Shown piece after piece: positions 8,945 to 63,552 of a stretch of DNA of 64,000 nt. The stretch comes from Meiothermus ruber DSM 1279. GTDB taxonomy: Bacteria > Deinococcota > Deinococci > Deinococcales > Thermaceae. The stretch is from assembly GCF_000024425.1 (NCBI RefSeq), contig NC_013946.1:620001-684000 (forward strand), written 5' to 3'. The notes beneath the pieces are model-generated. The model had not been told where the DNA came from, did no database searches, and saw only the letters and a list, made by a program, of their open reading frames with translations. Both the position numbers and the translations under genes were made by a program. Positions within the stretch are counted from its first letter, which is position 1; each line of letters starts with the position of its first letter.

Positions 8945-9622
8945 ATGCGTATCCATGGTTTTACAATCCTCGAGCTGCTGGTGGTTCTGGCTATTTTCAC
9001 CGGGGTTTTGACCATCGCTACGCGCTTCCTGGTCAGCCAGTCGCAGGATACCCGCATCATTCAGGAGCGCGACGAAGTGCAAGACCGGGCCCGTCTGGTG
9101 TTACAGATGGTGAGCCAGGACTTGATTCTGGCGGGCTCGAGCCGTTACGTTCGCAACAACGAGGTGCGCTTCGATGAAGCCAACTGGGTCTCCTGTGCGC
9201 CCGGAACCCCCTGTCTTTCCGGCACCGACCACAGCGAGCGCGATACCTTCGTTACCCGCTACCACACCAGCCTTTACCCCAGTGGCCAGGAGCGCCGCTC
9301 GGTGGGTTATACCTTCGATGGAACCACGCTTCTGCGGGCCGATGTGCCTTGCAGCCAGGCCCCTACCGGTTTGATAGCTGCCAGTAGTTACCGCGAACTT
9401 GCTCCTAACATTACCCAGCTCAACATTCGCTATGTTTGCGGCGACTCCGCAGCTACCGAGGTGGGCCTGCCCAGCGGATGCACGGTGGTGACCAATCCCA
9501 CCGAACGGTTTGTGCGGGCTGCGCTGGTCACCGTTACGGCTACTTCGCCCCAGGGAACCTATGCCTACACCATCGCCCAGCGGGTGCCGATTCGCAACCT
9601 GAAAACCGACGAGGTGCTGTGA
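8945..9622 (+). CDS. PilW/GspJ-like minor pseudopilin, set A
   Basis: The prepilin has 225 residues: leader MRIHG, then FTILELLVVLAIFTGVL with Glu+5. The region after the helix (QSQDTRIIQERDEVQDRARLVLQMVSQDLILAG) is the typical PilW/GspJ alpha segment, followed by a beta domain with several Cys. The ATG at 8945 is preceded by AGGAG and gives the usual short leader; an in-frame TTG two codons upstream is less likely. It overlaps the start of the next gene by one base (TGATG). By order it corresponds to PilA3 of the Thermus competence locus. Confidence 0.82.
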   Translation: MRIHGFTILELLVVLAIFTGVLTIATRFLVSQSQDTRIIQERDEVQDRARLVLQMVSQDLILAGSSRYVRNNEVRFDEANWVSCAPGTPCLSGTDHSERDTFVTRYHTSLYPSGQERRSVGYTFDGTTLLRADVPCSQAPTGLIAASSYRELAPNITQLNIRYVCGDSAATEVGLPSGCTVVTNPTERFVRAALVTVTATSPQGTYAYTIAQRVPIRNLKTDEVL

Positions 9623-11292
9623 TGAGACAACCTCGAGGAATTGCCCTAGTCGTCACGTTGGCTATCCTGGTAGCAGTTGCCTTGCTGGCTTTTGCTACCT
9701 CGATTACCACCATGATCAGCCAGTGGAGCGCCCGCAACGATCGCGGGGCAACCGAAGCCTATTACGTGGCCGAGACCGGTCTGCAGCAATGGAAGACCCT
9801 TCTTTTCCAGGCCTACCGCTGGCAGCTCTACCAGACGATCGATCGCGCGGCAGGAAGCCGCACCCCCACCCGCAGCGAGTGCGGCAATGTGCTGGCGGGC
9901 GGGGTGGACTGGAACCGTAACGGAACCATCGAAAGCAACGAAACCCTGCCTGCTACCCGCACCGGAACTGTTCCGATGGGTGCTGGTGTCGGCACCTACA
10001 CCATTACGATCGCGCAAGACCCCACCCGCCCACGCTTCATGCTGGTGCGTTCGGTGGGTCGCTATGGCGGCTCCCAGGCCATCGCCCAGGCCACCTTCGA
10101 CCTTTCCAACACCGGCCCCTGGAACTATGCCATCTTTAGCGGACGTGGGGCTTCCAATAAGCACCTTAATGGGGGCGCCATCGTTAGGGGCGGGTTGTAT
10201 GTGCAGGGCGACCCTGGAAATCCCGACAAAGAGGTAATTGGCTCTACCGGCAATTTTGCAATGCTCAACGAGTACAACTATAGCTCCGATGCGGTTTTGA
10301 GCAACCGTCTTAACAGCGATATGCGCAGCCTCTCTAACCTGTGTGCGACGTTACGGGTGCAGTATGGTCGGGTAGAGGTCAGCGGAAGCTCGAGCTATGG
10401 AACACCAAACAATAAGCTTCTAGGTGCCTATGTAGGGGATTCAGTAAACGACATTTACGGCAATACCTCTGATGTATGTGCTAATAACCGAGGTATCTGC
10501 ACCGATGATCGTGGGGCCTTTGATCTTCCTCCGCCCCTGGCCCCTCGCTTCCCCGAGTTTAACACCACCCCCTGTACCAGCGATCCCAGCCGAACCTGGG
10601 CGGCCTGTGTGCGGGACGAGGCAGCTACCGGCGGCCTTCGCATCACCAGCAGTGCGGTTCTTTTCCCTGTAGGTGCTATTCCAACCAGCCCACTATCATG
10701 CCTGCTGGGCAATCTCCTGAATGGAGGCGAGCTACGTTTTGGCGGTAGCAGTGTGGACTGCCGTTATACCCTAAATGGCAAGACAGGTGGTTTCCGCTAC
10801 GTAAGCGGTAATCCGGGTATGCTGGAGATTTATGGAACTTTGCATACCAGTGGCATCGACGTGAGGTTCAGTAATGCGATTAACTACCGCGCTTTTAACT
10901 TTGCCGACCCTACCGAGCGCAACGCCTCAATATTTGTGGAAGGGGGCAGCATCTACATCCAGGGTGACTTGCTGCCCGATGCCAGCTCGGCCACCTTTCC
11001 CGATCAGGTACTGGGGTTGCTGGCTCAGAACAACATCGAGCAGCTTACCAATAACGCCATGGGGATCTTTTATGCTGGTAATCGCTTCCGTACCCAGCAA
11101 GGCCAGCGCACACTGGGTACCGTGGTATCCAACGAGTTTTGCACTACCAGTGCAGGTGGCAATCAGTGTAACGCGGGTCAACAAGCTGAAGTGACGTATA
11201 TTCCTACCATGGGCAACATCCCGGTGGCAGCCCGAATCCCTGAGGACACCGTTATTGCCTCCTTTAAGGTGATGTCCTACGAACGGCGCTAA
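9622..11292 (+). CDS. comZ: ComZ/PilX/GspK-like pilus tip protein, set A
   Basis: This 556-residue protein has a prepilin leader (MRQPRG) followed by IALVVTLAILVAVALLAFAT; there is no Glu at +5, as in GspK-type subunits. The segment GATEAYYVAETGLQQW is the PilX_N signature. From about residue 165 (WNYAIFSGRGASNKHLNGG) a long beta-rich region begins that looks like a solenoid insertion (repeated short beta units with GGLYVQGD and GGSIYIQGD). Thermus ComZ has this kind of plan and is placed at the pilus tip, where it takes part in DNA uptake. Position, size and neighbours support ComZ, but sequence identity was not measured. Confidence 0.72.
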   Translation: MRQPRGIALVVTLAILVAVALLAFATSITTMISQWSARNDRGATEAYYVAETGLQQWKTLLFQAYRWQLYQTIDRAAGSRTPTRSECGNVLAGGVDWNRNGTIESNETLPATRTGTVPMGAGVGTYTITIAQDPTRPRFMLVRSVGRYGGSQAIAQATFDLSNTGPWNYAIFSGRGASNKHLNGGAIVRGGLYVQGDPGNPDKEVIGSTGNFAMLNEYNYSSDAVLSNRLNSDMRSLSNLCATLRVQYGRVEVSGSSSYGTPNNKLLGAYVGDSVNDIYGNTSDVCANNRGICTDDRGAFDLPPPLAPRFPEFNTTPCTSDPSRTWAACVRDEAATGGLRITSSAVLFPVGAIPTSPLSCLLGNLLNGGELRFGGSSVDCRYTLNGKTGGFRYVSGNPGMLEIYGTLHTSGIDVRFSNAINYRAFNFADPTERNASIFVEGGSIYIQGDLLPDASSATFPDQVLGLLAQNNIEQLTNNAMGIFYAGNRFRTQQGQRTLGTVVSNEFCTTSAGGNQCNAGQQAEVTYIPTMGNIPVAARIPEDTVIASFKVMSYERR

Positions 11293-11337: not shown

Positions 11338-12327
11338 ATGCCGCTCAAGCGCCAACTGGCCTGGGTGATCGGACTACTGGCCTTTATTCCCAACCTGGTT
11401 ATAGTTCTGACTTTCTGGGCTTCTTTTCAGGGAAGATCGCTGGAAACTTCGTTGTTTTTGCTGGTTTGGCTGTCGGTGTTGGCTCTGACTGCAGCCGGGG
11501 TGGGTTATTTCTTGGCTAACACCCTTATGCACCCAATCGACGAGCTGACCCGTAGCCTCCACTACCTGCGGGGAACTGGCCGCACCCTGGCCGAGCTTTC
11601 GCTGCCCTCGCCCAAGCAGCCACCCCCTGCCGAAATTGCCCAGTTGCGCGAAGGCTTTGAAGAGGTACTCGATCATCTGCGTGAGCTGTTGGAGGCGCGT
11701 GAAGCTACCTACGCGGCCCTGACCCACGATCTCAAGACCCCTTTGTTGGCTAGCCTGCGGGCGCTGGAGTATCTAGAAGAAGCCGACAAAATTGGGCCGG
11801 AAAAGCGAAAAGAGCTGCTGCGTAACTTGCGAGAGGAATTGAGCCGAAGCTACCTGCTGGTAGAAAACCTGCTCACGGCCAGCCGCCTCGAGGCCCGGCG
11901 CATCCAGCCGGAAAACCTCAACCTGCGCTCCGTGCTGGAGGACTTCCGCCTGCGCTATGCCCAGCAGGCTCAAAAACGCGGTCTGCGCCTGGAGATAGAG
12001 GGGGCTGGGCAGGCCAGGGCCGAGCGACTCTTGCTCGAACGGGCGCTGGCTAATCTGGTCGAAAACGCGTTGCGTCACGCCCAAAGCCGGGTGGTGCTGC
12101 GGGCGGGGGATGGCTGGCTCGAGGTCGAGGACGACGGGCCGGGGCTGCCTGACAATCTGGAAAACCTTACCCAGCCTTTTCGCAGCCAGCGCCTGCGCGG
12201 GGTGCGGGCGGGCAGTGCAGGGCTGGGGCTATACGTGGCCCGACGGGTGGCCGAGGTGCACGGCGGGCGGCTGGAAAACCTGGCCCTGCCGGGACAGGGA
12301 ACCCGGTTGCGCATCCGGTTGGCCTAA
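11338..12327 (+). CDS. Sensor histidine kinase between pseudopilin sets A and B
   Basis: The 329-residue protein has two N-terminal membrane helices (about 8-28 and 38-60) with only a very short external loop. A HAMP-like linker follows, then a HisKA domain with His130 in ALTHDLKTPLLASL, and a HATPase domain with N box LVENALRHA, G1 VEDDGPGLPD and G2 AGLGLYVARRVAEVHGG. The missing sensor domain suggests that it senses a membrane or cytoplasmic signal. No response regulator is adjacent; the nearest is the NarL-type regulator at 16340, beyond pseudopilin set B. HisKA kinases more often pair with OmpR-type regulators, so the pairing is unproven. Confidence 0.9.
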   Translation: MPLKRQLAWVIGLLAFIPNLVIVLTFWASFQGRSLETSLFLLVWLSVLALTAAGVGYFLANTLMHPIDELTRSLHYLRGTGRTLAELSLPSPKQPPPAEIAQLREGFEEVLDHLRELLEAREATYAALTHDLKTPLLASLRALEYLEEADKIGPEKRKELLRNLREELSRSYLLVENLLTASRLEARRIQPENLNLRSVLEDFRLRYAQQAQKRGLRLEIEGAGQARAERLLLERALANLVENALRHAQSRVVLRAGDGWLEVEDDGPGLPDNLENLTQPFRSQRLRGVRAGSAGLGLYVARRVAEVHGGRLENLALPGQGTRLRIRLA

Positions 12328-12439
12328 AAGGCTCCTTGCAGCCAGCATGTGATATTTGACCATGGGCGGCGGGTACCTTGGAAAGAAGCGGGCAACCCTA
12401 TCCAGAGCGAATAAAGGCTCGTTTAAGGCTGTTTTGCGC

Positions 12440-12471
12440 GGTGCATTAACAACTTATTAACGTAACGCACC
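12440..12471. promoter_or_regulatory. Inverted repeat upstream of set B sharing an 11-mer with set A
   Basis: GGTGCATTA and TAACGCACC form 9-nt arms with one mismatch around a 14-nt centre. The left part, GTGCATTAACA (12441-12451), is the exact reverse complement of TGTTAATGCAC at 7833-7843. A GC hairpin (ACCCCC/GGGGGT, 12473-12488) follows directly. This is a candidate operator for coordinated control of the two pseudopilin operons. Confidence 0.45.
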
Positions 12472-12525
12472 AACCCCCATCTGGGGGTACTTGAATTCAA
12501 ACGGCCCGTCCAAACTCGAGGCGGT

Positions 12526-12996
12526 ATGGCGAGGTGTTCGCAGGCTAGCAAGCAGATCAGAACGCCGGGGGGCTTTACCCTGCTGGAGCTCATCGTGGTG
12601 ATGGCCATCCTGGGGGTAGCAGCCGGCCTTGGCATCGCCCAGATACGCAACATTGGGCAGCGACAACAGGCTTTGGCAACGGTGGATCAAATCCGTCAGC
12701 TTTTCTGGCAGGGCGCGACTGCGGCAGCCAGCCGGGGCGGCACCAACTTCTTGTTGGTGCGCAGCGGCAACACCCTGCAGGTGCAGTCCCAGGTGGATGG
12801 AAGCGTGCTGCGCAGCGTGACCCTGCCGAATGGGGTGAGTTGTAGCCTAAGCAACGGCACACTGGCTACCTTTACTTCCCCTGGAAAAGTAATTTTTTCT
12901 AGCAGCTTTCCGGCCAACCGCCAGTTCACCATATCCGCTGCCGGGCAGACCTTTACCCTGACGGCCACCCTGATCGGGGAGGTGCGACGCCAATGA
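12526..12996 (+). CDS. GspH/FimT-like minor pseudopilin, set B
   Basis: This prepilin of 156 residues has a rather long leader (about 16 residues, ending RTPGG) followed by FTLLELIVVMAILGVAAG with Glu+5. The remaining domain of about 115 residues has the GspH/FimT look (helix QRQQALATVDQIRQLFWQGATAAASRG, then beta strands). It opens the second pseudopilin operon and overlaps the next gene by ATGA. The start ATG is preceded by CGAGGCGG. No specific substrate or function is known. Confidence 0.8.
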   Translation: MARCSQASKQIRTPGGFTLLELIVVMAILGVAAGLGIAQIRNIGQRQQALATVDQIRQLFWQGATAAASRGGTNFLLVRSGNTLQVQSQVDGSVLRSVTLPNGVSCSLSNGTLATFTSPGKVIFSSSFPANRQFTISAAGQTFTLTATLIGEVRRQ

Positions 12997-13469
12997 GAAG
13001 CCGAGGACTGACCCTTATTGAGGTGGTGGTGGCGGCGGGCGCGCTGGCGATTGTACTGGGAATCTTTACCACCTTGCTGGTGGGTAACATGCGGCAGACC
13101 AGCATTGTAGGGGGGCGGGCCCAGGCCAATCAGCTAGGGCTTTTTTTGGGTCGGCAGATCCTCGAGGCCGACGAACGGGCTGTTCCAGACGAGGGTGAAA
13201 GCCTCACCTGGGGCTATGGTCAGCTCACCAACGCCACCAGTGGCTTTCCCAGCCTTACCAGCGAGCAGCAGTTCGCCAACCTGGCCCTGTACCGCGCCAG
13301 TGTCACCAACCAGGGAGCCCCTTCCTGGGCCAGCAGCAACTGGCAGATTAGCCAGTACCGCATCGAGATCTGCTGGCGTAGTCCGGAGGGGGAGCAGTGC
13401 GTCAACCAGAGCATCGTTGGCCCTTCGCCGGCCCAGGTGGGAACCGAGATTAACAGCGGTATCAACTAA
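12993..13469 (+). CDS. PilV/GspI-like minor pseudopilin, set B
   Basis: The 158-residue prepilin has leader MRSRG and mature N-terminus LTLIEVVVAAGALAIVLG (Glu+5). The C-terminal domain has one Cys pair (EICWRSPEGEQCVNQ). The start codon overlaps the previous stop (ATGA), which implies translational coupling. It matches the second gene of set A in size and position, although the leader-distal sequence differs clearly, as expected for tip subunits with different specificities. Confidence 0.8.
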   Translation: MRSRGLTLIEVVVAAGALAIVLGIFTTLLVGNMRQTSIVGGRAQANQLGLFLGRQILEADERAVPDEGESLTWGYGQLTNATSGFPSLTSEQQFANLALYRASVTNQGAPSWASSNWQISQYRIEICWRSPEGEQCVNQSIVGPSPAQVGTEINSGIN

Positions 13470-13480
13470 AGGAGGTTACT

Positions 13481-14347
13481 TTGCGTCCTCGAGGTTTCAC
13501 AGTCCTGGAATTGCTGCTGGCCCTGCTGGTGCTGGTGATCGTGATGACGCTGGCTTTCAACACCAGCATCCAGGGGTTGCAGCTTAACCAGTCCAACGAG
13601 GCGGTGAGCTCGGCCCAGAACAAAGCCCGACGGGTGCTGGAGGTGCTGAGCCAGGATTTGCGCACGGCGGCCTTCGCTATCGTGACCCACACCCCCTTCA
13701 ACAGCAATGCCACCAGCATCTCTTTTGCCCAGGTGGCGGGGGGGGCTGGTTACGCGGTGAGCGCTGTGGCTGGCAACAGCCTGGCGATTGTGAGCAACTC
13801 CCCCACCATCGCCACCGAAATTCCGGTGGGCAGCCGGCTGGTTGTGATCGACGGCAACGGCAACGCAGTGCTCACCCGTACCACCGGACTGCCCACGCTG
13901 AGCGGTATCAATACCTACACCATCCCCACCACCTGCAGCAACCTGCCGGTTACCGCCACCTCCCAGACCCTGGCCTCGGTGGTTAGCTTGCTGGGCTATA
14001 GCTACGATGCAACCAACCGCAAGCTGGTCTACCAGGCCCTGGGCGATGCGACAACGACCGATGTGGCCTACGATGTGAGCAATTTCCGCATCGATTACGT
14101 CTACCAGCGGCGCAATGGTTCTTCGGTTAGCGAAGAGCGCAACCCCAGCGGCTACCTGGTGAGCGGCCGGGCGCAGCCCTACTTCACCAGCAGCGGATCG
14201 GAATATACGTTGCGTCGGTTGCAGTTCACCCTGGGGGTTCAGCTACCCTTGCGCGGGCGCAACGTGGAGCGAACCTACACCGGGCAGGTGGATATGATCA
14301 ACAACCTCTACTATCAGGCCAAGGTGGTGAGCATATGCAACCCATGA
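13481..14347 (+). CDS. PilW/GspJ-like minor pseudopilin, set B
   Basis: This prepilin of 288 residues starts at TTG with an excellent ribosome binding site (AAGGAGG, 6 nt upstream). Leader MRPRG is followed by FTVLELLLALLVLVIVMTLA (Glu+5), then the GspJ-type segment QNKARRVLEVLSQDLRTAAF. The larger C-terminal part is beta-rich and ends in QVDMINNLYYQAKVVSICNP. Its last codons overlap the start of the PilX-like gene, so the two are translationally coupled. Confidence 0.8.
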   Translation: MRPRGFTVLELLLALLVLVIVMTLAFNTSIQGLQLNQSNEAVSSAQNKARRVLEVLSQDLRTAAFAIVTHTPFNSNATSISFAQVAGGAGYAVSAVAGNSLAIVSNSPTIATEIPVGSRLVVIDGNGNAVLTRTTGLPTLSGINTYTIPTTCSNLPVTATSQTLASVVSLLGYSYDATNRKLVYQALGDATTTDVAYDVSNFRIDYVYQRRNGSSVSEERNPSGYLVSGRAQPYFTSSGSEYTLRRLQFTLGVQLPLRGRNVERTYTGQVDMINNLYYQAKVVSICNP

Positions 14348-16248
14348 GAGATCGCCAGGGCATCGCGATTGTGGTAGCCCTGACCATTATTCTGCTGTTG
14401 AGCGTGGTAAGCACCTTAATGTTCACACGTTCCATCAACGACTTGCGTACCAGCCGGGATAACACGGCCATGGCGCAGGCCATCAACCTGGCCCGGGGCG
14501 GGGCGGTGGCGGCCACGGCCCTGCTGTCCAACGAGGTGCGGGCCAGCCTCGAGAGCATCGTGCAATCGGCAGACCCCAGCATCGGCGGCATCAGCACCAG
14601 CGACATCTGGTACTACGGCGGCAACGCCACCCAGCCCATCGCCTCCACGGTGGCGGCCCGCCTGGCTGTGCTGGCCAACACCCTCCAGACCAGTCTTAAT
14701 GCGGCCATCTGCAACCAGAACTTTGCACCGGATGGTTCGGGCGCCACGGTGCGGGTGCGCGTGCACTTTACCACCGCCCCGGCCTGCGGCCAGCCCTTTC
14801 CTGCTTCGGCCCAGCTACCATCCGGGTATGTGGTAGACGACGACAACAACCCAGCCACGCCCTTAACCCGCCAGGTGCAGGGGTACGCCCTGCCCTACGT
14901 GATGGTGGTCACGGCCTCTCCCGGCACCCCCTACCAGCGCAACGTGATGGTGCAGGGTGAGTACCGCTTCTTGCTAAAAAACGGCAGCTTTGCTCGCTAC
15001 GCGCTGTTTACCAACCGACACCGTACCCGCTCCAATAGCTCGGTCTGGTTTACCAGCAACACCCTGTTCGATGGGCCGGTGCACACCAACGAGCGCTTTA
15101 ACTTCTCCTTCAATCCCTGGTTTGGCGGTTATGTGACCAGCGCGGGCTGCACCAATGCCGGGGCCAGCAGTTGTGCTGGCTCTATCAGCCCTGGTGCGTT
15201 TTTTGGTGCGGGCAACAACACCACCTTTTTATCCCCCAGTCAGATGACCAACCCCAACGCCCCCTCCTGGACCAGCGGTGGCATTACCCACGCCCCGGTG
15301 TTTGAGGGCAACCCCCGGGTGAACTGGCAGGAGCCGTTTATCCCCATGCCGGATAACAACCAGAACCAGCGCAGCGCGGCGCAGACGGGGGGTCTATACT
15401 TTAACTCCGACATTGCCCGGCTCACCCTGTACGCAGGGGATGACACTGGAACGCCGCCCACCTGCAACGCTTCGGGGGTTTGTACGCCGGCCACCTCGCC
15501 CTACCAGTACATCGAGGTCTGCCTGACAACAGCCTGCACAGGGAACAACCGGCTGCTATACCGCTACGATGCCAGCGGGGCGCTCTACCGCTACAACGGA
15601 AGCTGGCCCGGCGTGCTGGTGCGGGCGGGCTTCAACGGCATGATCTTTGCCGATGGAAGCATCAACAACCTCACCGGCCCAGCCCGTTCCGATGCCAGCA
15701 ACCCCAACACCGCCCCCCCAGCGCTGGCTAGTTTTGCGCAGATTACCGTAGCCAACGCTGGTAGCGGTGAGAATATCCGAATCCAGGGTGACCTTAAGTA
15801 CCAGAGCCCGGCCTGCAGCGGTACGCCAACCCGGAGCGGCAACACCGTGACGCGGGCCACCTGCAATAACCTCTCCGCCGACAATATCCTGGGGGTGTAT
15901 AGCCAGGACGGGGATATTCTGCTGGGCAACGGCACCAACAGCTCCTTGCAGGATCTGACCATTCACGGGGTGCTGATGACATCGAGGGGCGAGGTGGCGG
16001 TGCAGAACTACAACAGCATCTCTCCGCGTGGTTCCATCCGCTTGCAGGGGGGGATTATCCAGTACACCTACGGGGCCTTCGGGCAGTTCAACAGCTCCAC
16101 AGGCCAGATGATTCAGGGCTATGCTCGCCAGTTCACCTACGACCCCCGGATGCAAGACCGGGCCCCGCCCTTCTTCCCGACCACCGGGGTGGTGCAGGTG
16201 AGCGTAGCCACCCCCCTTAGCTTTGGCCAGCGCGAGCAGGTGTACTAG
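14335..16248 (+). CDS. PilX/GspK-like large tip protein, set B
   Basis: The 637-residue protein has leader MQPMRDRQG and helix IAIVVALTIILLLSVVSTLMFT, without Glu+5, as in GspK. The segment AMAQAINLARGGAVAATALL corresponds to the PilX_N region. At about residue 222 FARYALFTNRHRTRSNS starts the long beta-rich region, at the same place as NYAIFSGRG in the set A protein; later segments (SINNLTG, NIRIQGDLKY, GDILLGNG) look like beta-solenoid turns. It contains about a dozen Cys, mostly in close pairs. ATG at 14344, which overlaps the previous stop, is an alternative start. Its ligand is unknown. Confidence 0.78.
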   Translation: MQPMRDRQGIAIVVALTIILLLSVVSTLMFTRSINDLRTSRDNTAMAQAINLARGGAVAATALLSNEVRASLESIVQSADPSIGGISTSDIWYYGGNATQPIASTVAARLAVLANTLQTSLNAAICNQNFAPDGSGATVRVRVHFTTAPACGQPFPASAQLPSGYVVDDDNNPATPLTRQVQGYALPYVMVVTASPGTPYQRNVMVQGEYRFLLKNGSFARYALFTNRHRTRSNSSVWFTSNTLFDGPVHTNERFNFSFNPWFGGYVTSAGCTNAGASSCAGSISPGAFFGAGNNTTFLSPSQMTNPNAPSWTSGGITHAPVFEGNPRVNWQEPFIPMPDNNQNQRSAAQTGGLYFNSDIARLTLYAGDDTGTPPTCNASGVCTPATSPYQYIEVCLTTACTGNNRLLYRYDASGALYRYNGSWPGVLVRAGFNGMIFADGSINNLTGPARSDASNPNTAPPALASFAQITVANAGSGENIRIQGDLKYQSPACSGTPTRSGNTVTRATCNNLSADNILGVYSQDGDILLGNGTNSSLQDLTIHGVLMTSRGEVAVQNYNSISPRGSIRLQGGIIQYTYGAFGQFNSSTGQMIQGYARQFTYDPRMQDRAPPFFPTTGVVQVSVATPLSFGQREQVY

Positions 16249-16261
16249 CCGGGCTTTCACG

Positions 16262-16307
16262 CTTCCACAGCTCCCCGAAAAGCAAAGGGGGCTGTGGAAG
16301 ATTTTTT
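16262..16307 (+). terminator. Strong intrinsic terminator of pseudopilin operon B
   Basis: CTTCCACAGC(t)CCCC pairs with GGGGGCTGTGGAAG across a 10-nt loop with a single bulged T, and is followed directly by ATTTTTT. It ends set B and separates it from the response regulator gene. Confidence 0.9.
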
Positions 16308-16324
16308 CTCGAGCCGTAACTTGC

Positions 16325-16330
16325 TAATCT
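16325..16330 (+). promoter_or_regulatory. -10 box TAATCT, possible leaderless promoter of the NarL-type regulator
   Basis: TAATCT lies 9 nt before the ATG at 16340, just after the set B terminator. It fits the TAnnnT pattern seen at many other starts in this window. The -35 is unclear. Confidence 0.35.
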
Positions 16331-16339
16331 GGAAGCTGG

Positions 16340-16924
16340 ATGCGCCTTTTGATTGCCGATGACCACCCTTTGTTTCGCATGGGCCTGCGTGCGGCCCTCG
16401 AGCGTGAGGGTTTTGCGGTGGTGGCCGAGGCGGGCGACGGCCAAGAAGCAGTTAAGCTGGGCCTGGAGCTATTGCCCGATGGGGTGCTGCTGGATGTGCG
16501 CATGCCCCAGATGGACGGCATTACGGCTACCCGGATGCTACGGGAGCAGCGCTACAACGGACTCATTGCCCTGCTAACCACCTTCAACGAACCCGTGCTG
16601 GTTCAGCAAGCCGCCTACGCCGGTGCCGATGCCTATTGGTCGAAAGAGCTGCCCCCGGAGGCTTTGGCTGAGCGTCTGCGCAGGCTGGGCCTGGGGCTGG
16701 AGCCCCGCCTGCGGGCCCCCGAGCTGCCCAGGTTGACCGCCCGCGAGCAAGAAGTGTTGCAGTGGATGGCGCAGGGGCTATCCACCAAAGAAATTGCCCG
16801 CCAGATGCATATTTCGCCAGAAACCGTCAAAGATCATTTATTGAGGCTGTACGAAAAGCTCGAGGCCCGCAACCGTGTGGAGGCGCTCGAGCGGGCCCGC
16901 AGCCTGGGGCTGTTGAGCGTATAG
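16340..16924 (+). CDS. NarL/FixJ-type response regulator between sets B and C
   Basis: The 194-residue protein has a receiver domain (1-115) with acidic pocket D7/D8, phosphorylation site D52 in VLLDVRMPQMDG, Thr in LLTTFNE and Lys in YWSKELPPE. A LuxR-type helix-turn-helix follows (about 132-190: LTAREQEVLQWMAQGLSTKEIARQM, then SPETVKDHLLRLYEKL). The gene sits alone between the terminator of set B and the promoter of set C. The nearby kinase at 11338-12327 is the only unpaired one in the window, so the two may form a split two-component system controlling pseudopilin expression; this is inference. Confidence 0.92.
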   Translation: MRLLIADDHPLFRMGLRAALEREGFAVVAEAGDGQEAVKLGLELLPDGVLLDVRMPQMDGITATRMLREQRYNGLIALLTTFNEPVLVQQAAYAGADAYWSKELPPEALAERLRRLGLGLEPRLRAPELPRLTAREQEVLQWMAQGLSTKEIARQMHISPETVKDHLLRLYEKLEARNRVEALERARSLGLLSV

Positions 16925-17032: not shown

Positions 17033-19138
17033 ATGTCAGATACAAGGGGCCTTGCATTGGTTTCGACGCTGGTGTTTATGTTCATTGTTATTGTGCTGGT
17101 TAGCATTGCTATGCTATCCTCCCTCAACAACCGTCGCAATGCCCAGGATGCCCTGCGCACCTCCCAGGCCCAGTTTGCTGCCGAGGCAGGGCTCGAGCGG
17201 GCCGTGGCCCGGCTGTGGCACCAGGTGCTGGCCAGTGCGACCTCCCGTAGCGTAACGGCTTATGGCGTCGAGTTAGACCGGATGGGCCTGACCAACGGCA
17301 CCACCATACCCAGCTTGTTCGGTGCTCCACAAAGCCTGGGGGACGGCTCGAGCTTTGTGGTGCAGGTCTCGCGCCAGGATGATACCCGTCCCGATCCCGA
17401 CGCCATCGTACTGACCGTGACCTCCACCGGTACCCTGGCCGACGGCACCACCCGGCGCCTGCGGCAGGTCTTCCGGGTAGATCGGGCCTACTTTCCATTC
17501 GACTACGCCCTTTTGACCAACAACGCCGAGTGCATTTTTTGCCACCTGGAGGTAAAAAGCCTGGATGCGCTGCGGGGCAACCCCAACCCCAACGACCCCA
17601 GCACCTGGTGGCGGCGGGCCAAGGTGGGGGTGCTGGAAAGCCTGATTATGCGCGACGATGAAGAAGCGGGGGTGGTGCACGGCCCGCTGGTGGCTCGAGG
17701 CACTATCAGCCGGCAGTACAGCGGTGCTATCGGCCCTTCCAGCCGCTACTACACCACCATGCGCCCCGGTGATACCCGCATTCGCTCCGCCACTCCCATC
17801 ACAACCACCCCGGCCGACTGCTCGACCCCCAGCAACTGCACCACCCCGCAAAACTTCTACTACAACTACCCCGATAGCAGCAGTCTGGCAGCGTTTGGCA
17901 ACCGCTTCCCCGATGGTGAGCTGCCCGATCGTTTTCCCCTGCCCATCCCAGATGCCAACCACAACCGGCTCATCGACGACGCTGAGTGGAACGCCGAGGT
18001 GGGCTCGAGCCTGGCCGGAACCAACGAGAGCTACAGCGCCGGCACCATCACGGCCGCCATGATCCTCAACCCCGCTGGTCGCGTCGCCTGGCCGGGCGGG
18101 AGCGCGGTGCAGACCCGAACCTCGGCCGATCTGGGCCAGAACCCCACGAATGTGCTGCTGGATGGTTCTGTCATCCCGATTGAGCTGAGCGGTACGGTGT
18201 TCATCAATGGAGACGTGGTGCTGAGGGGATTTGTTCGTGGCAACGGCACCCTTCTGGCCCGCGGCAACCTCTACGTGATGGGCGATCTGACCTACGATTG
18301 CGGTACTGGGAGTGGCCTGGTTCCCTGCGATTACAGCAACCCCAGCCGCCTACCCCAGCTCAACCTAATAGCGGGCGGCAATTTGCTGGTAGGCGACTTT
18401 ATGACCGTTCAAAGCGACATAGAAAGCCTGAGCGAAGAGCAGATGCTCAGCACCCGCTCCAACCAACCCACCATCAGCTTCTGCAGAGAAAACCCTACCG
18501 ACGCTGCCTGCTACCCGGAAGAGCGCCCGCGGCCCAACCTGGCCCTGACCGAGATAGCCAACTTCAACCGGCGGGAGTTGCAACGCTACCTGCGCGACAA
18601 TAGCTACCGGCCGCGTTTTTACACATTTGGCGAGGATCGCATCTACTTCGCCACTGGTTGCAGCCATCAACCACAAAGATATGGAGAATACAGCACCATT
18701 GCAGCGGGGGCTCGAGTCTCCTTCTGCCGTGGCGACACGATACTGAGCAGCAGCACCCTCACAGCCGAACAAGCCAGCCGCATCCTGGCCGGTGCAGTCC
18801 GCTACGAAGTGACCTCGAGCTCCTTCAACAACGCCATTCTCAAGAATCTCTGGGCCAACTCTATGAACGCCCGGGGTACCGGCCCACTCCGCACCGATGG
18901 GCTGCTTTATTCAGCCAATGCTATTTTTGGCCTTGCTCAACGCAAATATACCAAGCTGGGTGGGCGTTGGGACTTGCGGGGGGCCCTGGTGGCCGCCGAT
19001 ACCGGCATCTTGGTGCCCGGCCCCGGGGATGGCTCTTCGGGCCTAACCATCTACCACGACAGCCGCCTGCGCCCTCGAGTACCGGGGGGTCAGCAGGCCC
19101 AGCTTAGAAGGGGCGTGTGGGAGGTGGTTGGGCAGTGA
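17033..19138 (+). CDS. PilX/GspK-like large tip protein with a CXXCH motif, set C
   Basis: This 701-residue protein has leader MSDTRG, then LALVSTLVFMFIVIVLVSIAML without Glu+5, and a PilX_N segment (AQFAAEAGLERAVARLW). After PFDYALLTNN, the point where the large proteins of sets A and B enter their beta-rich part, it carries ECIFCHLEVK: Cys167, Cys170 and His171 form CXXCH, the classic site for covalent haem c attachment. The next 30 residues have WWRR and an acidic run before VHGPLVARGT. Domain polarity would put this region in the periplasm or outside, where haem is attached. Other readings are a metal site or a redox disulfide. The start ATG has GGGAGAGG upstream; an in-frame GTG at 17006 is less likely. 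Confidence 0.78.
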   Translation: MSDTRGLALVSTLVFMFIVIVLVSIAMLSSLNNRRNAQDALRTSQAQFAAEAGLERAVARLWHQVLASATSRSVTAYGVELDRMGLTNGTTIPSLFGAPQSLGDGSSFVVQVSRQDDTRPDPDAIVLTVTSTGTLADGTTRRLRQVFRVDRAYFPFDYALLTNNAECIFCHLEVKSLDALRGNPNPNDPSTWWRRAKVGVLESLIMRDDEEAGVVHGPLVARGTISRQYSGAIGPSSRYYTTMRPGDTRIRSATPITTTPADCSTPSNCTTPQNFYYNYPDSSSLAAFGNRFPDGELPDRFPLPIPDANHNRLIDDAEWNAEVGSSLAGTNESYSAGTITAAMILNPAGRVAWPGGSAVQTRTSADLGQNPTNVLLDGSVIPIELSGTVFINGDVVLRGFVRGNGTLLARGNLYVMGDLTYDCGTGSGLVPCDYSNPSRLPQLNLIAGGNLLVGDFMTVQSDIESLSEEQMLSTRSNQPTISFCRENPTDAACYPEERPRPNLALTEIANFNRRELQRYLRDNSYRPRFYTFGEDRIYFATGCSHQPQRYGEYSTIAAGARVSFCRGDTILSSSTLTAEQASRILAGAVRYEVTSSSFNNAILKNLWANSMNARGTGPLRTDGLLYSANAIFGLAQRKYTKLGGRWDLRGALVAADTGILVPGPGDGSSGLTIYHDSRLRPRVPGGQQAQLRRGVWEVVGQ

Positions 19139-19590
19139 ACGCGCCTTCACAAAAGGGCATCAGCCTGCTGGAGCTTTTGATCGCGCTGGCCGTGCTGGGC
19201 ATCCTGCTGGGGGTGGGTTTGGTCTCACTGAGCGCTTACCGACAAAGCCTGGTTATCCGCGAGGCGGCCACCCAGGTCGCGACCGAGCTCCAGAGCATCC
19301 GTCAACAAGCCCGCCGGCAATCGCTTAACTTTTCCTTTCAAGCGGTGGAGGGTGGCAACACCTACAAAGCAGGCCGTACCGCTGAACTGGCCTCCCTGCC
19401 CAGCAGATCGCTGCCCCCAGGGGTGGTTTTCCAGCGCGTCCCTGCTGGTGGGGGTGGCGTTACCTTCCTGGCCCCGTACGGCGTGGTTGACGCGGCCAAC
19501 CGCACTTTTACCCTCCGGGGGCCGGGCAACCGGGTGCTGAATGTGCACGTGGTGGGCAGTACCGGCAAGGTGGTGGTGCGTGCGCCGTAA
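19135..19590 (+). CDS. GspH/FimT-like minor pseudopilin, set C
   Basis: The prepilin has 151 residues, starting at GTG that overlaps the stop of the PilX-like gene (GTGA). The leader NAPSQKG is followed by ISLLELLIALAVLGILLG with Glu+5, then the GspH-like helix YRQSLVIREAATQVATELQ and a beta domain. It contains no Cys. In this set the large PilX-like gene comes first and the three small genes follow, the reverse of sets A and B. Confidence 0.8.
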   Translation: MNAPSQKGISLLELLIALAVLGILLGVGLVSLSAYRQSLVIREAATQVATELQSIRQQARRQSLNFSFQAVEGGNTYKAGRTAELASLPSRSLPPGVVFQRVPAGGGGVTFLAPYGVVDAANRTFTLRGPGNRVLNVHVVGSTGKVVVRAP

Positions 19591-19954
19591 GGCTTTTTCC
19601 CTGGTAGAAGTGATGGTGGCCCTGGCCATCCTCTCCATCACCATTTTGATTTTGAGTTACTTTGGCTCGAGCTTCACCCTGACCCGCAACGCCCAGATAG
19701 ACACCCAGGCCCAGGCCTTTGCCCGCAGCTACTTCGATACCCTGCGGGCCCGCTGGTCAACAAGAGCTGCTTTTGCTGCGGGGACACCGCCTTCTGTGGC
19801 CCTTCCCAGCGGCTTTAGCAACCTTACCATCGCCACCGAGGATGTTCAAACCATCGGAACCCAGGTGGTGTTGCGCCGGGTTACCCTCCAATTCACCGGC
19901 CCGCAAAACCGGCCGTACCGCTTCACCACCGAGGTGGTACACCCCCCCCAGTAG
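19580..19954 (+). CDS. PilV/GspI-like minor pseudopilin with Ala at -1, set C
   Basis: This prepilin of 124 residues starts at GTG 11 nt before the end of the preceding gene. The leader is MRRKA and the mature start is FSLVEVMVALAILSITIL (Glu+5). The residue at -1 is Ala, where nearly all prepilins, including the other eleven here, have Gly. The C-terminal domain is short (about 90 residues, beta-rich, FTTEVVHPPQ end) and lacks Cys. Alternative upstream starts in the same frame would only add residues encoded inside the previous gene. Confidence 0.76.
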   Translation: MRRKAFSLVEVMVALAILSITILILSYFGSSFTLTRNAQIDTQAQAFARSYFDTLRARWSTRAAFAAGTPPSVALPSGFSNLTIATEDVQTIGTQVVLRRVTLQFTGPQNRPYRFTTEVVHPPQ

Positions 19955-19961
19955 AGGCCTT

Positions 19962-20777
19962 ATGCGCAAGACAGGCTTTACCCTCATAGAAATGCTGATT
20001 GCGGCCGCCATTGGGGTGGTCATTCTGACTTTAATTGCCGCGGGATTGCGCAGCAGCGGTGATAGCCTGCGCTTCATACAAAACAACCAACTCCTTACCG
20101 AAGACCTGCGCAACGCTGGCAACCTGATAAGCGACTATCTGTCTGTGGCGGCTTTTGTGTACCCTCCCGGCGTGACCCTTAGCATAGGCAGCGCGGGTGG
20201 CTATAGCGTGCGCAATCCGCGCACCGGCGACAACACCTGGCAGACGGGTCTGGATCCGGTGATAGCCCTGCTCCAGCCCCCGCGAGTAGAGAATGGGGTG
20301 GAGGTGGTGAAATTCGTGATGATCTACCCGCTCAACCGGGGCTGGGTGGTCGCGCGGGCCACCGGGGCCGAGAACCCCGGCTCAGACCCTGCCAACAACG
20401 ACAAGTGGTTGCTGTACATCTACGAACGCAACCTGACGGTGGGTGGCAACCGCCTGCCCAATGGGCTACCGGCCACCATGCCCACCACCATACCGGGCAG
20501 CAGCGGCAACCTGCTGGCCGACTATGTGCAGCCGGGCGGTTTTATGGTGAGCTTTGCCGACTGCCTGAGCTTCGACGAGGAGGGTCTGGCCATCCCGGTG
20601 CCCTGCCCTTCCACCGCACCTGCACCGCTTCGGGCCGAGCACAGTGCGGCGCGGGTGCGTTTTTCGCTGCAGGGCGAGATAAGGCAGGGGGGGCGCGACG
20701 CCCGCGTGCCGGCCAGCCCCTGCGTTTCGAAGCGGCTCCCCGCAACCTGCCCCAGCGGCTTAGCGAGATTAGCCTGA
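19962..20777 (+). CDS. PilW/GspJ-like minor pseudopilin, set C
   Basis: The prepilin has 271 residues: leader MRKTG, then FTLIEMLIAAAIGVVILTLIA with Glu+5, and the GspJ segment NQLLTEDLRNAGNLISDYLS. The remaining beta domain includes one Cys pair (ADCLSF...PCPST) and a C-terminal Cys pair. A longer frame opens at 19719, but the ATG at 19962 has GAGG upstream and gives the normal five-residue leader. It is the last gene of set C and converges on lepA with one base between them. Confidence 0.8.
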   Translation: MRKTGFTLIEMLIAAAIGVVILTLIAAGLRSSGDSLRFIQNNQLLTEDLRNAGNLISDYLSVAAFVYPPGVTLSIGSAGGYSVRNPRTGDNTWQTGLDPVIALLQPPRVENGVEVVKFVMIYPLNRGWVVARATGAENPGSDPANNDKWLLYIYERNLTVGGNRLPNGLPATMPTTIPGSSGNLLADYVQPGGFMVSFADCLSFDEEGLAIPVPCPSTAPAPLRAEHSAARVRFSLQGEIRQGGRDARVPASPCVSKRLPATCPSGLARLA

Positions 20778-39483: not shown

Positions 39484-40059
39484 TCACGGGCCTTGTAGCT
39501 CAACTATCCGGTCTACCAGGGAAAGCCAGCTTTTGTCGTGTGTGGCAATCACCACACCACCCCTGGAGCGCGCCTGCTGTACCAGGTTTTCCAGCAAGCC
39601 CCGCCCTTGTGCGTCTAGGGCAGCTTCGGGCTCGTCCAGTAGCCAGATATCGGGATTTTGCAGGTGCAATCGGGCCATGGCCAGGCGCTTTTTCATGCCG
39701 CTGCTGTAGCTCAGGACAGGCTTGTCGTGTGGAAGCCCAAATTGGGTCAGCGCGGCCCGAATTTCACTGCGACCACCGGTTTTTCCATCGAGCCGAAGTG
39801 CGTAGTGCAGGTTTTCAGCTCCGGTAAAGTGCCGGTGGAAAGCCGGTGGATTAGCCAAGAAGCCCACCCTTCCGCTTAGCTTGACCGAACCCTGGGTGGG
39901 ACGCACCAACCCAGCCAGCACCCGCAACAGGGTGGTTTTGCCCACGCCGTTGGGGCCTACCAGGGCGACGGCTTCGTGTTGAGCCAGTTGAAAATCCAGG
40001 TTGCGCAGCACCCAGTCCCGCCCGTAACGTTTGGAAACGGCTATGGCTTCGATAAGCAT
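39484..40059 (-). CDS. ABC transporter ATP-binding protein, CcmA-like
   Basis: This is a compact 191-residue ATPase: Walker A GPNGVGKTT (about 33-41), a short signature SYSSGMKKRLAMARLHL (about 119), Walker B IWLLDEPEAALD (about 140) and the switch His in IATHDKSW. The small size and the SSGMKKR signature fit CcmA, the ATPase of cytochrome c maturation, which drives haem release. It lies 21 nt after a CcdA-like gene, supporting a cytochrome c role. Partner genes ccmB, ccmC or ccmF are not in the window. The start at 40059 is 7 nt after TATGGT (40067-40072, minus strand). Confidence 0.75.
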   Translation of the reverse strand: MLIEAIAVSKRYGRDWVLRNLDFQLAQHEAVALVGPNGVGKTTLLRVLAGLVRPTQGSVKLSGRVGFLANPPAFHRHFTGAENLHYALRLDGKTGGRSEIRAALTQFGLPHDKPVLSYSSGMKKRLAMARLHLQNPDIWLLDEPEAALDAQGRGLLENLVQQARSRGGVVIATHDKSWLSLVDRIVELQGP

Positions 40060-40080
40060 AGAACATACCATACACGCCGA

Positions 40081-40773
40081 CTACTGGCCGATGAGAATTT
40101 TCTCGAGGTTTAGCAGCCGCTCGGGGGTGATTTTTATAAAGAAGCTGTTGAGCCGGGTGAAAGTGCCGGTGAACATCAGGATGCCCATTGCGACCAGGGC
40201 CACCCCTGCTACCGCCTCGGCCCAGCGGGAAAAGCGGGCCGCCTGGCGCAGCACAGGGCGGATGCGGTCGGTCAACAGGGCCACCAGCAAAAACGGAACC
40301 GCCAACCCCAGGATGTAAGCCAGTAGGGAATTGATCCCACCCCCGGCCGCGGTGAGGGTAAGAATGCCCCCCAGGATCGGGCCAATGCAGGGAGTCCAGC
40401 CCAGTCCCAGAACGGCGCCGAGCACAAAAGCCCCCCAGGGGCGGCTGGTGTCCCCTTGGTATCGTAAATTAACGCCCCATTGGGGTTTCAGGCCCAGCAT
40501 GTACAGACCCAGCAGCACCAGGATTGCACCACCTGCTTGGCCCAGCAACTGCCGGTTTTCCGATAAAAAACTGCCCAGCAGGGTGAAGGGGAGCCCCAGT
40601 AGCAAGAACAGCAGCGAGAAACCACCCACAAAGAAAAGGGCGTTGAGCAGCGGTCGTCCCCGCTCTCCACCCAAGTACAGCAGGTATGTGGGCACCAGGG
40701 GTAGTACACAGGGGGAGAGGAAGGAAAGAATACCAGCTAGAAAAGCCGCTACCACACTCATGGCTGCCATCAT
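40081..40773 (-). CDS. ccdA: Cytochrome c biogenesis protein CcdA-like (thiol-disulfide membrane transporter)
   Basis: The 230-residue membrane protein has six hydrophobic segments and the two CcdA Cys motifs: LSFLSPCVLPLVPTYL (about 18-33) and GWTPCIGPILGGI (about 129). CcdA carries electrons from cytoplasmic thioredoxin across the membrane to keep the Cys of apocytochromes reduced for haem attachment. The start is the first of two ATGs at 40770-40773. It precedes the CcmA-like gene and is divergent from the ABC ATPase at 40835. Confidence 0.9.
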   Translation of the reverse strand: MMAAMSVVAAFLAGILSFLSPCVLPLVPTYLLYLGGERGRPLLNALFFVGGFSLLFLLLGLPFTLLGSFLSENRQLLGQAGGAILVLLGLYMLGLKPQWGVNLRYQGDTSRPWGAFVLGAVLGLGWTPCIGPILGGILTLTAAGGGINSLLAYILGLAVPFLLVALLTDRIRPVLRQAARFSRWAEAVAGVALVAMGILMFTGTFTRLNSFFIKITPERLLNLEKILIGQ

Positions 40774-40822
40774 AGACCTGAAGCCCCAGGACATTCGTAA
40801 GTTTTTATGATTCGGTTGGCGG

Positions 40823-40828
40823 TAGGCT
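40823..40828 (+). promoter_or_regulatory. -10 box TAGGCT, leaderless promoter of the ABC ATPase
   Basis: TAGGCT ends 6 nt before the ATG at 40835 in a 61-nt divergent gap. No -35 is obvious. Confidence 0.4.
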
Positions 40829-40834
40829 AGGGGT

Positions 40835-41848
40835 ATGTTGCGGGTGATAGGGCTCGGCAAAAGCTATCCGGGGTTCCGGCTGCAGGTCTCCCTCGAGGTC
40901 GGCGTGGGGCAAACCCTGGCCTTGCTGGGGCCTTCGGGCAGCGGTAAGAGCACGCTTTTGCGGCTGATAGCGGGTTTGGAGGCACCGGAGGTCGGTCAGG
41001 TCTGGCTGGAGCAGACCGAACTCACCCCCCTGGCGCCGGAAGCGCGCCGGGTGGGGTTTGTGTTTCAGGATTATGCCCTGTTTCCACACCTATCGGTCTG
41101 GGAAAACATTGCCTTTGGCCTGCGGGAGGCCCGCTGGGATGGCGCAAGCATACGGCGGCGTGTGGCCGAACTGCTGGATTTGACCCATTTAGGGCCCCAC
41201 GCGCAAAAACGTCCCAACCAGCTTTCGGGCGGTGAGCGCCAGCGGGTGGCCCTGGCTCGAGCCCTGGCCAACCGGCCCCGCCTGCTGCTGCTGGATGAGC
41301 CGCTGGGTGCTCTGGATCTGAAGCTGCGGCACGAACTGCTGTGGGAGCTGCGGGCCATTTTGCGGCAGGCGGGGGTGCCGACCATTGTGGTGACCCACGA
41401 CCAGTCCGAGGCTTTTGTAATCGCCCAGCAGATTGCCCTGCTGAGGGGAGGTGCGGTTGTGCAGGTGGGTTCGCCTGAGCAGCTTTTTCGCCATCCAAAA
41501 AACGCCTGGGTGGCCGGCTTTCTGGGCCACCGCAACCTGCTGTCGGCCGATCAGAGCCAGCAGATGGGGTTGCCGGCTCGCCCGCACCTGCTGCCGCCGG
41601 AGGCCATCACCCTGGGCCAAGGGGAAGAAGCGCGGGTAGAAGAGCGGGTTTTTAAGGGTTTTGTGGTGGGCCTCGAGCTGCTCTGGCGAGGCTGTAAGCT
41701 GTACCTGGAGGGCCCGGAGCTGGGGCTGTACCCCGGCGATACCACCCAGCTTGGGATCGATTGGTCTAGGGTGGTTGCGCTGGAGGAGGAGCCCTCGAGT
41801 ACCCCGGGGGCTGCGCAACCCTCGCTGGAAGCTCCTCGAGCCCGCTAG
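40835..41848 (+). CDS. ABC transporter ATP-binding protein, probably for thiamine or a related solute
   Basis: The 337-residue protein has Walker A GPSGSGKSTLL (about 33), the Q-loop in FVFQDYALFPH, signature QLSGGERQRVALARAL (about 129), Walker B LLLLDEPLGALD and the switch VVTHDQSEA. A C-terminal regulatory (TOBE-like) domain covers about 240-320. The layout is that of CysA/PotA/ThiQ-type importers. The next gene, 13 nt away, is thiamine diphosphokinase, so thiamine import is the best guess; this is inference from context only. No permease or binding-protein gene is adjacent. Confidence 0.8.
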   Translation: MLRVIGLGKSYPGFRLQVSLEVGVGQTLALLGPSGSGKSTLLRLIAGLEAPEVGQVWLEQTELTPLAPEARRVGFVFQDYALFPHLSVWENIAFGLREARWDGASIRRRVAELLDLTHLGPHAQKRPNQLSGGERQRVALARALANRPRLLLLDEPLGALDLKLRHELLWELRAILRQAGVPTIVVTHDQSEAFVIAQQIALLRGGAVVQVGSPEQLFRHPKNAWVAGFLGHRNLLSADQSQQMGLPARPHLLPPEAITLGQGEEARVEERVFKGFVVGLELLWRGCKLYLEGPELGLYPGDTTQLGIDWSRVVALEEEPSSTPGAAQPSLEAPRAR

Positions 41849-61557: not shown

Positions 61558-61624
61558 GCGCTGCGGCCAAACCCCCGCTGGCCGTTCTGTAGGATACGGC
61601 GGGTGGGCCTGGGCCCTTTATCCG

Positions 61625-61636
61625 GGACAATTGTCC
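61625..61636. promoter_or_regulatory. Perfect palindrome GGACAATTGTCC upstream of ctaA
   Basis: A 12-bp perfect palindrome 65 nt before the ctaA start. The size and symmetry suit a regulator binding site; no family is assigned. Confidence 0.4.
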
Positions 61637-61701
61637 TAATGGTGCATCCTGGGGCCTTCTGGCAGAATAAAGACACTACCCCCAGGGGGGGTCTTTTCCT
61701 T

Positions 61702-62655
61702 ATGTCCAACCGACGGTTTACCTACTACGCTTGGGGGGTGGTGGTTTTTACCCTGGTGGTCATCTTGTGGGGCGATGTGGTGCAGGCCACCGGCTCCGGG
61801 GATGGCTGCGGTGCCCACTGGCCCACCTGCAACGGGGAAGTGCTGCCCATCTTCAGGGGCCTCGAGACCTTCATCGAGTTTTTCCACCGGGTTACCAGTG
61901 GTCTTTCGCTGCTCCTGACCATTGGGCTTCTGCTCTGGTCGCGCCGGGCTTTTCCTAAGGGTCACCTGGCCCGGCTGGGGGCCGGTCTTGCCATGTTCTT
62001 CATGATTACCGAGAGCCTGGTGGGGGCCGGGCTGGTGCTTTTCCGGCTGGTAGGGGAGGACGCCAGCGTGGCCCGGGCCATTGTGGCCCCCATTCACCTC
62101 ATCAACACCCTTTTCCTGATTGGTTCGTTGACCCTCACCGCCTGGTGGTCGCGCCACCCCGAGCACCGCCCGGTCTTGAAAGGCCAGGGGCTGGTGGGCT
62201 GGGCCCTGGGCCTGGGCCTGGGAGGCATCCTGCTGGTTGCAGCGGCCGGGGCCCTGACCTCGCTGGGCGATGCTTTGTTTCCGGTGCGCAACACCGCCGA
62301 AGCGGTGGGGCGGGCCCTCACCCCCGGTGAGCATTTCTTGGTGCAGCTTCGCATCTATCACCCCTTTATCGCGGTGGTGGTGAGCGTGTATGTGGTTCTG
62401 GTAGCCAACCTGGTCGCGCTGCTGCGCCCCAGCCCCCACACCAAACTATTCGCCCGCATGGCCGGCCTTCTGTTTATCTTGCAGCTTGGGGTGGGATATC
62501 TTAACGTGCTGCAGGCAGCACCGCTGTACACCCAGCTTCCTCACCTGTTGCTTTCCGATCTGGTCTGGGTGACCTGGCTCTTGCTCACGGTCTCGGCCCT
62601 CAGCCTGGCCTACCCTGTGAGGCCATCCAGGGCCGAAGCGGCTAAAGCGAGGTAG
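61702..62655 (+). CDS. ctaA: Haem A synthase (COX15/CtaA)
   Basis: The 317-residue protein has eight likely membrane helices in two halves. The first external loop has the CtaA Cys pair, GDGCGAHWPTCNGEVLP (about 35-51, C-x6-C), and His residues in FFHRVTSG (about 62) and IHLINTLF (about 133) for haem binding; the second half has LRIYHPFIAV. It oxidises haem O to haem A for the aa3-type oxidase encoded downstream. The start is ATG 61702; a longer frame from 61603 lacks support. Next comes ctaB, 6 nt away. Confidence 0.93.
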   Translation: MSNRRFTYYAWGVVVFTLVVILWGDVVQATGSGDGCGAHWPTCNGEVLPIFRGLETFIEFFHRVTSGLSLLLTIGLLLWSRRAFPKGHLARLGAGLAMFFMITESLVGAGLVLFRLVGEDASVARAIVAPIHLINTLFLIGSLTLTAWWSRHPEHRPVLKGQGLVGWALGLGLGGILLVAAAGALTSLGDALFPVRNTAEAVGRALTPGEHFLVQLRIYHPFIAVVVSVYVVLVANLVALLRPSPHTKLFARMAGLLFILQLGVGYLNVLQAAPLYTQLPHLLLSDLVWVTWLLLTVSALSLAYPVRPSRAEAAKAR

Positions 62656-62661
62656 ACTGCT

Positions 62662-63552
62662 GTGGTGGTTTCTATTGCTAACACCGAGCGCGCCACATGG
62701 CGAGACTATTTTTGGCTAACCAAACCTCGAGTCATCAGCCTGCTGCTGTTCACCACCCTGGCGGCCATGTTCATTGCAGCGGGTGGGTGGCCGGGCCTGG
62801 GCTTGTTCCTGGTGGTTTTTGTGGGCGGCTATATGGCGGCTGGTTCGGCCAATGTTTTCAATATGGTCATTGACCGCGATATTGACGGTCGCATGAAACG
62901 TACGGCCCAGCGCCCTACGGTTACCCACAAGATTAGCAGCCGCGACGCCACCCTTTTCGCTACCGTCCTGATGCTGCTCTCCTTTGTATTACTCTGGTGG
63001 GGGGCCAACCTGACCACTGCGCTTTTGGCGATGGCCGGGCTGGGCTGGTACGTGCTGGTCTACACCCTCTACATGAAGCGCCGCTTCTGGAGCAACATCG
63101 TAATCGGTGGGGCTGCCGGGGCGTTCCCGCCCTTGGTTGGTTGGGCTGCTGTGACGGGGGAACTGAGCCTTTTTGCCTGGTATTTGTTCTTGATTATCTT
63201 TTTTTGGACGCCCGTGCATTTCTGGGCGCTTTCGCTCATGATCAAAGACGATTACGCCGCGGTGGGGGTTCCTATGCTCCCAGTGGTGCGCGGCGAGCGC
63301 GAGACGGCCTATCAGATAGGCCTCTATGCCATTCTGACCACTGTCATTACCCTTGTCCCGGTGCTGATGGGCGAGCTGCGCTGGGTGTATTTGCTGGCGG
63401 CGCTGCTGCTCAACGGCTGGCTTTTACTGTATAGCTGGCGCTTATACCAGACCCTGGAGCGAAACTGGACGCTTACGCTGTATAAGTACTCAATGTTATA
63501 CCTGGCATTACTGTTTGTCGCGATGGCCATAGACCGGGCCCTGTGGATGTAG
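62662..63552 (+). CDS. ctaB: Protohaem IX farnesyltransferase (haem O synthase)
   Basis: The 296-residue UbiA-type membrane enzyme has about nine helices. The prenyl diphosphate site is [22 protein letters not shown] (about 68-89 in two parts), and the second Asp motif is [21 protein letters not shown] (about 192). It adds farnesyl to haem B to give haem O, the substrate of CtaA. The start is one of two adjacent GTGs 6 nt after the ctaA stop; TAGACT just upstream could give an extra leaderless start. Confidence 0.95.

Follow-up and report, generated by a model that had tools for sequence, protein, structure and literature searches.

A type IV minor pilin of Meiothermus ruber DSM 1279 probably carries a covalently bound haem c. 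The protein is encoded in set C, one of the sets of prepilin genes (A, B and C) in the 64,000-nucleotide stretch of DNA that we analysed over its full length (the window; contig NC_013946.1, positions 620,001 to 684,000), in a genome that consists of one contig of 3,097,457 bases. Our results point to a family of ComZ/PilX-type minor pilins of the pilus tip whose members, the set C pilin among them, probably hold one haem c each, which we infer to be attached at a CXXCH motif. Covalent haem c is the best explanation of this motif because the motif is invariant, is lost only as a unit, lies in the exported part of the protein and occurs in cells that are positive for the haem c maturation (Ccm) machinery. 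An earlier reading of the same DNA, the original prediction, had proposed a haem-bearing pilus tip, and this interpretation is partly supported by our analysis. The features of the set C pilin on which the argument turns are as follows.

17033 to 19138, plus strand: set C minor pilin of PilX/ComZ type, 701 residues, with CXXCH (translation, PilX_N, match to ComZ 6qvi_A).
17048 to 17050, plus strand: Gly6, at the expected prepilin peptidase site between TRG and LALVSTLVF (translation, alignment).
17480 to 18148, plus strand: residues 150-372, the initial portion of the inserted tip domain, with CXXCH and an EF-hand-type loop.
17531 to 17545, plus strand: C167-I-F-C170-H171, the haem c signature, where the inserted tip domain opens (translation, alignments, model).
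17951 to 17986, plus strand: EF-hand-type loop D307-A-N-H-N-R-L-I-D-D-A-E318, probable Ca2+ site (alignment).
18665 to 18667, plus strand: H545 (CSHQPQRY), candidate distal haem ligand, counterpart of [DEK]EHxxxY in other phyla.

The original prediction had placed the motif within 17513-17700, and C167, C170 and H171 do form an exact CXXCH there, immediately C-terminal to DYALLTNNAE in the translation of 17033-19138. It is the only CXXCH among the non-overlapping open reading frames (ORFs) of at least 90 residues in the window, and the composition of the protein (10 Cys and 6 His) leads one to expect about 0.001 such motifs. Because all three residues are kept in 20/20 aligned orthologues from Meiothermus and its neighbours in the Thermaceae (40-99% identity), with no loss seen in close orthologues, a chance origin is excluded, by conservation as well as by the low expectation. 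The motif contexts among family members (NCI[ML]CHA, NCVFCHS and NCMYCHL) resemble those of ordinary haem c motifs. As expected of a c-type cytochrome, the CXXCH is found inside an exported protein, here one with an N-terminal prepilin helix, and the G at the Gly6 position is kept in 61/61 aligned members. The idea that the motif region would be outside the cytoplasm is supported: it belongs to an exported domain that is predicted to be at the pilus tip. PilX_N (PF14341) matches the protein with an E of 3.6e-4 and a score of 20.9, which is below the Pfam cut-off of 25.5; the prepilin signal and the setting in a minor-pilin operon are those of a PilX/GspK minor pilin.

The family is present in at least four phyla, in one of which it is frequent. 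Searched with a profile, 111 Deinococcota genomes yielded more distant members, which also have CXXCH, and a search of a plasmid collection gave a single match, a Deinococcus plasmid carrying one family member. With a wider search, CXXCH members were found in genomes G386, G249, G119 and G287, which represent three phyla beyond Deinococcota. The phylum of G249 and G386 has matches in 43/68 genomes (33/38 among the good genomes), that of G119 has a strong match in 10 genomes, and that of G287 has a match in one of the five genomes. CXXCH is encoded in every full-length locus fetched from these other phyla, many of them without any further Cys, and no spacing variants of it occur among the members. 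When the most diverse 20 members are aligned (21-69% identity to the set C pilin), the only invariant columns are G6, L161, C167, C170, H171, G217, G378 and P382. A paralogous subfamily characterized by LAMLSETTNCxYCHLRVxGDVG retains CXXCH as well.

Conservation was also assessed with a motif-blind profile, built from residues 100-225 after masking of the columns for C, C and H, and run against all ORFs of all collected loci. This gave 77 ORF matches, not all of them independent because some are longer versions of one gene, and in 72 the aligned stretch includes CXXCH. Of the remaining five, two represent a single gene (L053/L087) whose best stretch ends before its CXXCH, bringing the carriers to 74/77; two further motif-less matches are weak and partial (E about 4e-4). 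The fifth, L051 (1471-3522), is a real exception, with GVFSN in place of CxxCH and with a second conserved His (see below) also absent. Since L051 groups within the carriers, next to L048/L049 (support 0.999) and L050 (0.96), the tree indicates that it has lost C, C and H jointly from a carrier ancestry.

An AlphaFold2 model built from a 50-sequence alignment (mean predicted local distance difference test score, pLDDT, 89.5; predicted template modelling score 0.80) runs from a long N-terminal helix through pilin strands up to about residue 153 and an insert to final strands at 688-701. CXXCH lies at the opening of this insert, where residues 168-171 form a short helix flanked by two strands. 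Foldseek on the whole model returned noise only; a VIA search then gave ComZ. The best solved match is ComZ 6qvi_A (Z 12.2, 345 residues aligned at 18% identity over the span 40-701), with a root-mean-square deviation of 11.3 that reflects domains not rigidly superposed, and the best sequence match in the PDB is likewise ComZ (E 0.0037). The solenoid part matches the ice-binding protein 6eio (Z 12.1). Subdomain 150-372 modelled alone reached a pLDDT of 82 and had no fold match in the PDB, which proves nothing about the novelty of its fold. As in ComZ, a pilin domain with an inserted beta-solenoid is predicted, and the model of the set C protein is, at good confidence, that of a ComZ-like pilin with a large beta-solenoid tip.

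Two further elements of the tip domain accompany the motif. A 12-residue EF-hand-type loop, DANHNRLIDDAE (307-318), lies about 140 residues past CXXCH and is present in 52/54 members of subfamily 1. In the set C pilin it follows the pattern DxNxNxxIDxxE and is succeeded in the model by a helix (316-327), and it is a probable Ca2+ site. Subfamily 2 has CXXCH and is without the loop. The other element is a second conserved His, which appears as [DEK]EHxxxY in other phyla and as CxHxxxxY in Meiothermus (H545). A His within seven residues ahead of the Y550 column occurs in 43/51 subfamily-1 members, compared with 7% expected from composition, although the relatedness of the sequences inflates this count. 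The tip domains of L115 and L119 hold just two His, that of CXXCH and the second conserved one. Judged from this pattern, the foremost candidate for distal haem ligation is H545.

The original prediction had also pointed to CcmA- and CcdA-like genes in the window, and both identities hold.

39484 to 40071, minus strand: CcmA, haem exporter ATPase of haem c maturation (TIGR01189, above cut-off).
40081 to 40860, minus strand: CcdA/DsbD_TM-type thiol-reducing membrane protein (PF02683, E 4e-11).

Elsewhere in the M. ruber genome, ccmB, C, E, F, G and H form a single operon (L172 3735-9854; G000:C1 about 823700-829850). Haem c attachment is possible in M. ruber because ccmBCEFGH, CcmA and the CcdA-type gene are all present and, by its gene content, the cell is able to attach haem c. 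No recognisable ccmA precedes ccmB in the ccm operon, and CcmA sits in the window beside the CcdA-type gene.

We propose that the prepilin would enter the inner membrane via its N-terminal helix and that, on the outside, the Ccm machinery would attach haem covalently through Cys167 and Cys170, His171 becoming the proximal ligand, before or during folding of the inserted tip domain. The pilin would then be loaded at the pilus tip together with the operon's three other minor pilins. The haem would be located at the passage from the pilin domain to the beta-solenoid tip, in the same subdomain as the EF-hand-type Ca2+ loop, and H545, which corresponds to a second His in most members, would be well suited to distal ligation. 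The cofactor would most likely stabilise or tune the tip domain, giving a local redox or ligand-sensing centre. Because one haem cannot conduct along the pilus, any electron exchange would be limited to the tip itself or to periplasmic partners following retraction.

Some of the evidence for haem attachment carries caveats, and some observations weigh against it. PF01578 occurs in 10/10 strong carriers of the G119 phylum and 42/43 carriers of the G249 phylum, but this co-occurrence with Ccm is of little force because PF01578 is present in nearly every genome of these phyla (109/111, 121/132 and 64/68 genomes of three phyla), and we dropped it as a discriminating test. Genome G547, a 93% complete draft, encodes a CXXCH pilin but no PF01578, though both its congeners have PF01578. 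Linkage of the pilin to ccm genes comes from one case that carries a caveat. In G119, 17 bp separate a C-terminal piece of the pilin gene from ccmC-ccmE-ccmF downstream of it, and close to both pieces of the gene (L152 1-4020 and L094 8189-9449) multihaem cytochromes are encoded. The start of an IS3-like transposase, recognised by reading the translation rather than by a database match, stands at both contig ends, and the pilin copy is probably interrupted by an IS3-like element; we infer that the two pieces make up one gene. The second His is absent in 7 complete subfamily-1 members and throughout subfamily 2. Finally, neither the tip subdomain nor the whole model matched a cytochrome among solved structures, an absence that proves nothing.

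If haem c is attached, two readings of its role subdivide this explanation and are not exclusive of it. By analogy with TfcP of Myxococcus, a cytochrome c that stabilises PilY1 through calcium and so contributes with calcium to the stability of the tip complex (PMC8833165), the haem may do nothing more than stabilise the tip. This is quite possible, if somewhat short of probable: almost every subfamily-1 member combines CXXCH with the EF-hand-type loop, but TfcP is a separate soluble protein, and subfamily 2 has CXXCH and no such loop. It is unlikely that the tip is a retractable redox probe exchanging electrons with minerals, humics or partner cells, a role in line with the original prediction, which had suggested contact with minerals or other redox partners. 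Such a role would suit the tip location assumed by analogy with ComZ (PMC6561018) and the multihaem cytochromes next to one member. However, there is one haem per tip pilin in a pilin without a conducting path, and cytochrome genes are not adjacent in most carriers examined. M. ruber is, in addition, an aerobic heterotroph, which speaks against a redox probe. Contact with minerals and a role that is structural, sensory or locally redox-active are equally likely, and the sensing of redox state or the exchange of electrons locally at the tip would be more novel than stabilisation. We suggest only tentatively that type IV tip pilins bearing covalent haem c and calcium act across phyla as retractable redox or gas sensors or as electron-exchange tips. 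Confirmation of the haem would make electron sensing or exchange by pilus tips testable on one defined protein of a thermophile with few point mutations.

Covalent haem c also has to be weighed against readings of the motif that involve no haem. The periplasmic Dsb system could link the two Cys of the motif in a conserved disulfide, structural or redox-active, at the tip-domain base, and the His would then be kept for packing or thiol tuning. In the 20-orthologue alignment, the Meiothermus proteins have eight other conserved Cys, whose spacing is pairwise (263/269, 423/432, 484/493 and 543/565), so that the pilin probably uses disulfides, and the CcdA-type protein encoded in the window would fit such a reading. 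Yet the other Cys pairs are lost in other phyla, where CXXCH alone is retained; the His is conserved equally with the Cys, and a simple disulfide needs no His; and C, C and H are lost jointly in L051. The signature of a Ccm substrate is this combination of a CXXC and a neighbouring invariant His in a protein exported by a cell that has Ccm, and we consider a disulfide improbable. Less probable still is a site for zinc or another metal with an extra ligand from the tip domain: Cys, Cys, His and the second conserved His could form a C2H2-type site, but a whole subfamily that keeps CXXCH is without that second His, CXXCH does not vary in spacing, and outside the cytoplasm zinc is seldom bound by free thiols.

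The set C pilin gene is followed by the three other prepilin genes of its operon, and the window contains two paralogues for comparison.

19117 to 19590, plus strand: same-operon prepilin of GspH/FimT type (N_methyl).
19541 to 19954, plus strand: same-operon prepilin of GspI/PilV type (N_methyl).
19962 to 20777, plus strand: same-operon prepilin of GspJ/PilW type (N_methyl).
9622 to 11292, plus strand: set A paralogue, no CXXCH.
14335 to 16248, plus strand: set B paralogue (DUF4900), no CXXCH.

In Meiothermus and the other phyla alike, the family member occupies the PilX position in a minor-pilin operon that also encodes PilV- and PilW-like prepilins. Set B was considered as a cryptic member of the family and ruled out, as it is a DUF4900 protein without CXXCH. 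In this genome set B fills a slot between the genes of a histidine kinase and a response regulator (window 11338-16924), and in the related genome G018 the same slot holds a subfamily-2 CXXCH PilX with its own three prepilins (L173 6179-12464); this difference is a cassette exchange. In several genomes of the G249 phylum the CXXCH pilin gene is followed by one whose product has about 310 residues and a TLYLRDGSTLDG-like start (L161 7141-8058, L164 7004-7936 and L166 6395-7318). At 61603-63552 of the window, genes for haem A synthase (CtaA/COX15) and for a UbiA-family protein that is probably haem O synthase adjoin one for a DUF305 protein.

Among known systems, ComZ of Thermus thermophilus is the closest, being both the best structural and the best PDB sequence match. 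ComZ is a competence DNA receptor with a solenoid inserted in the pilin sheet; the tip is argued to be the one place where it fits, and its description mentions neither haem nor calcium (PMC6561018). Set C-type proteins differ from it in having CXXCH, an EF-hand-type loop and the subdomain 150-372 ahead of the solenoid. With PilX_N/GspK minor pilins the set C protein shares the N-terminal helix, the G at -1 and an operon with three other prepilins, although it remains under the Pfam cut-off. The original prediction knew of no haem-bearing PilX/GspK-type protein, and no haem-bearing PilX, GspK or ComZ minor pilin is described in the part of the literature covered here, the open-licence articles of PubMed Central as distinct from subscription papers and preprints. 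As far as this literature reaches, a cofactor-bearing pilus tip is a function not described for minor pilins, and the set C protein, if its haem is confirmed, would be the first minor pilin to bear a covalent redox cofactor of its own. Nearer at hand, the set A and set B paralogues are likewise of PilX/GspK type and lie in four-gene sets of the same kind but, as had been claimed for both, are without CXXCH. TfcP of Myxococcus xanthus, encoded in a minor-pilin/PilY1 cluster and considered unlikely to act in electron transport, resembles the set C pilin in its single CXXCH and in being linked to minor pilins, to calcium and to the complex at the pilus tip (PMC8833165). TfcP, however, is no pilin but a soluble protein of the periplasm in its own right, made with a type I signal peptide and using a Cys as distal ligand (PMC8833165), whereas the set C protein has a prepilin-type N-terminal helix and a predicted pilin fold.
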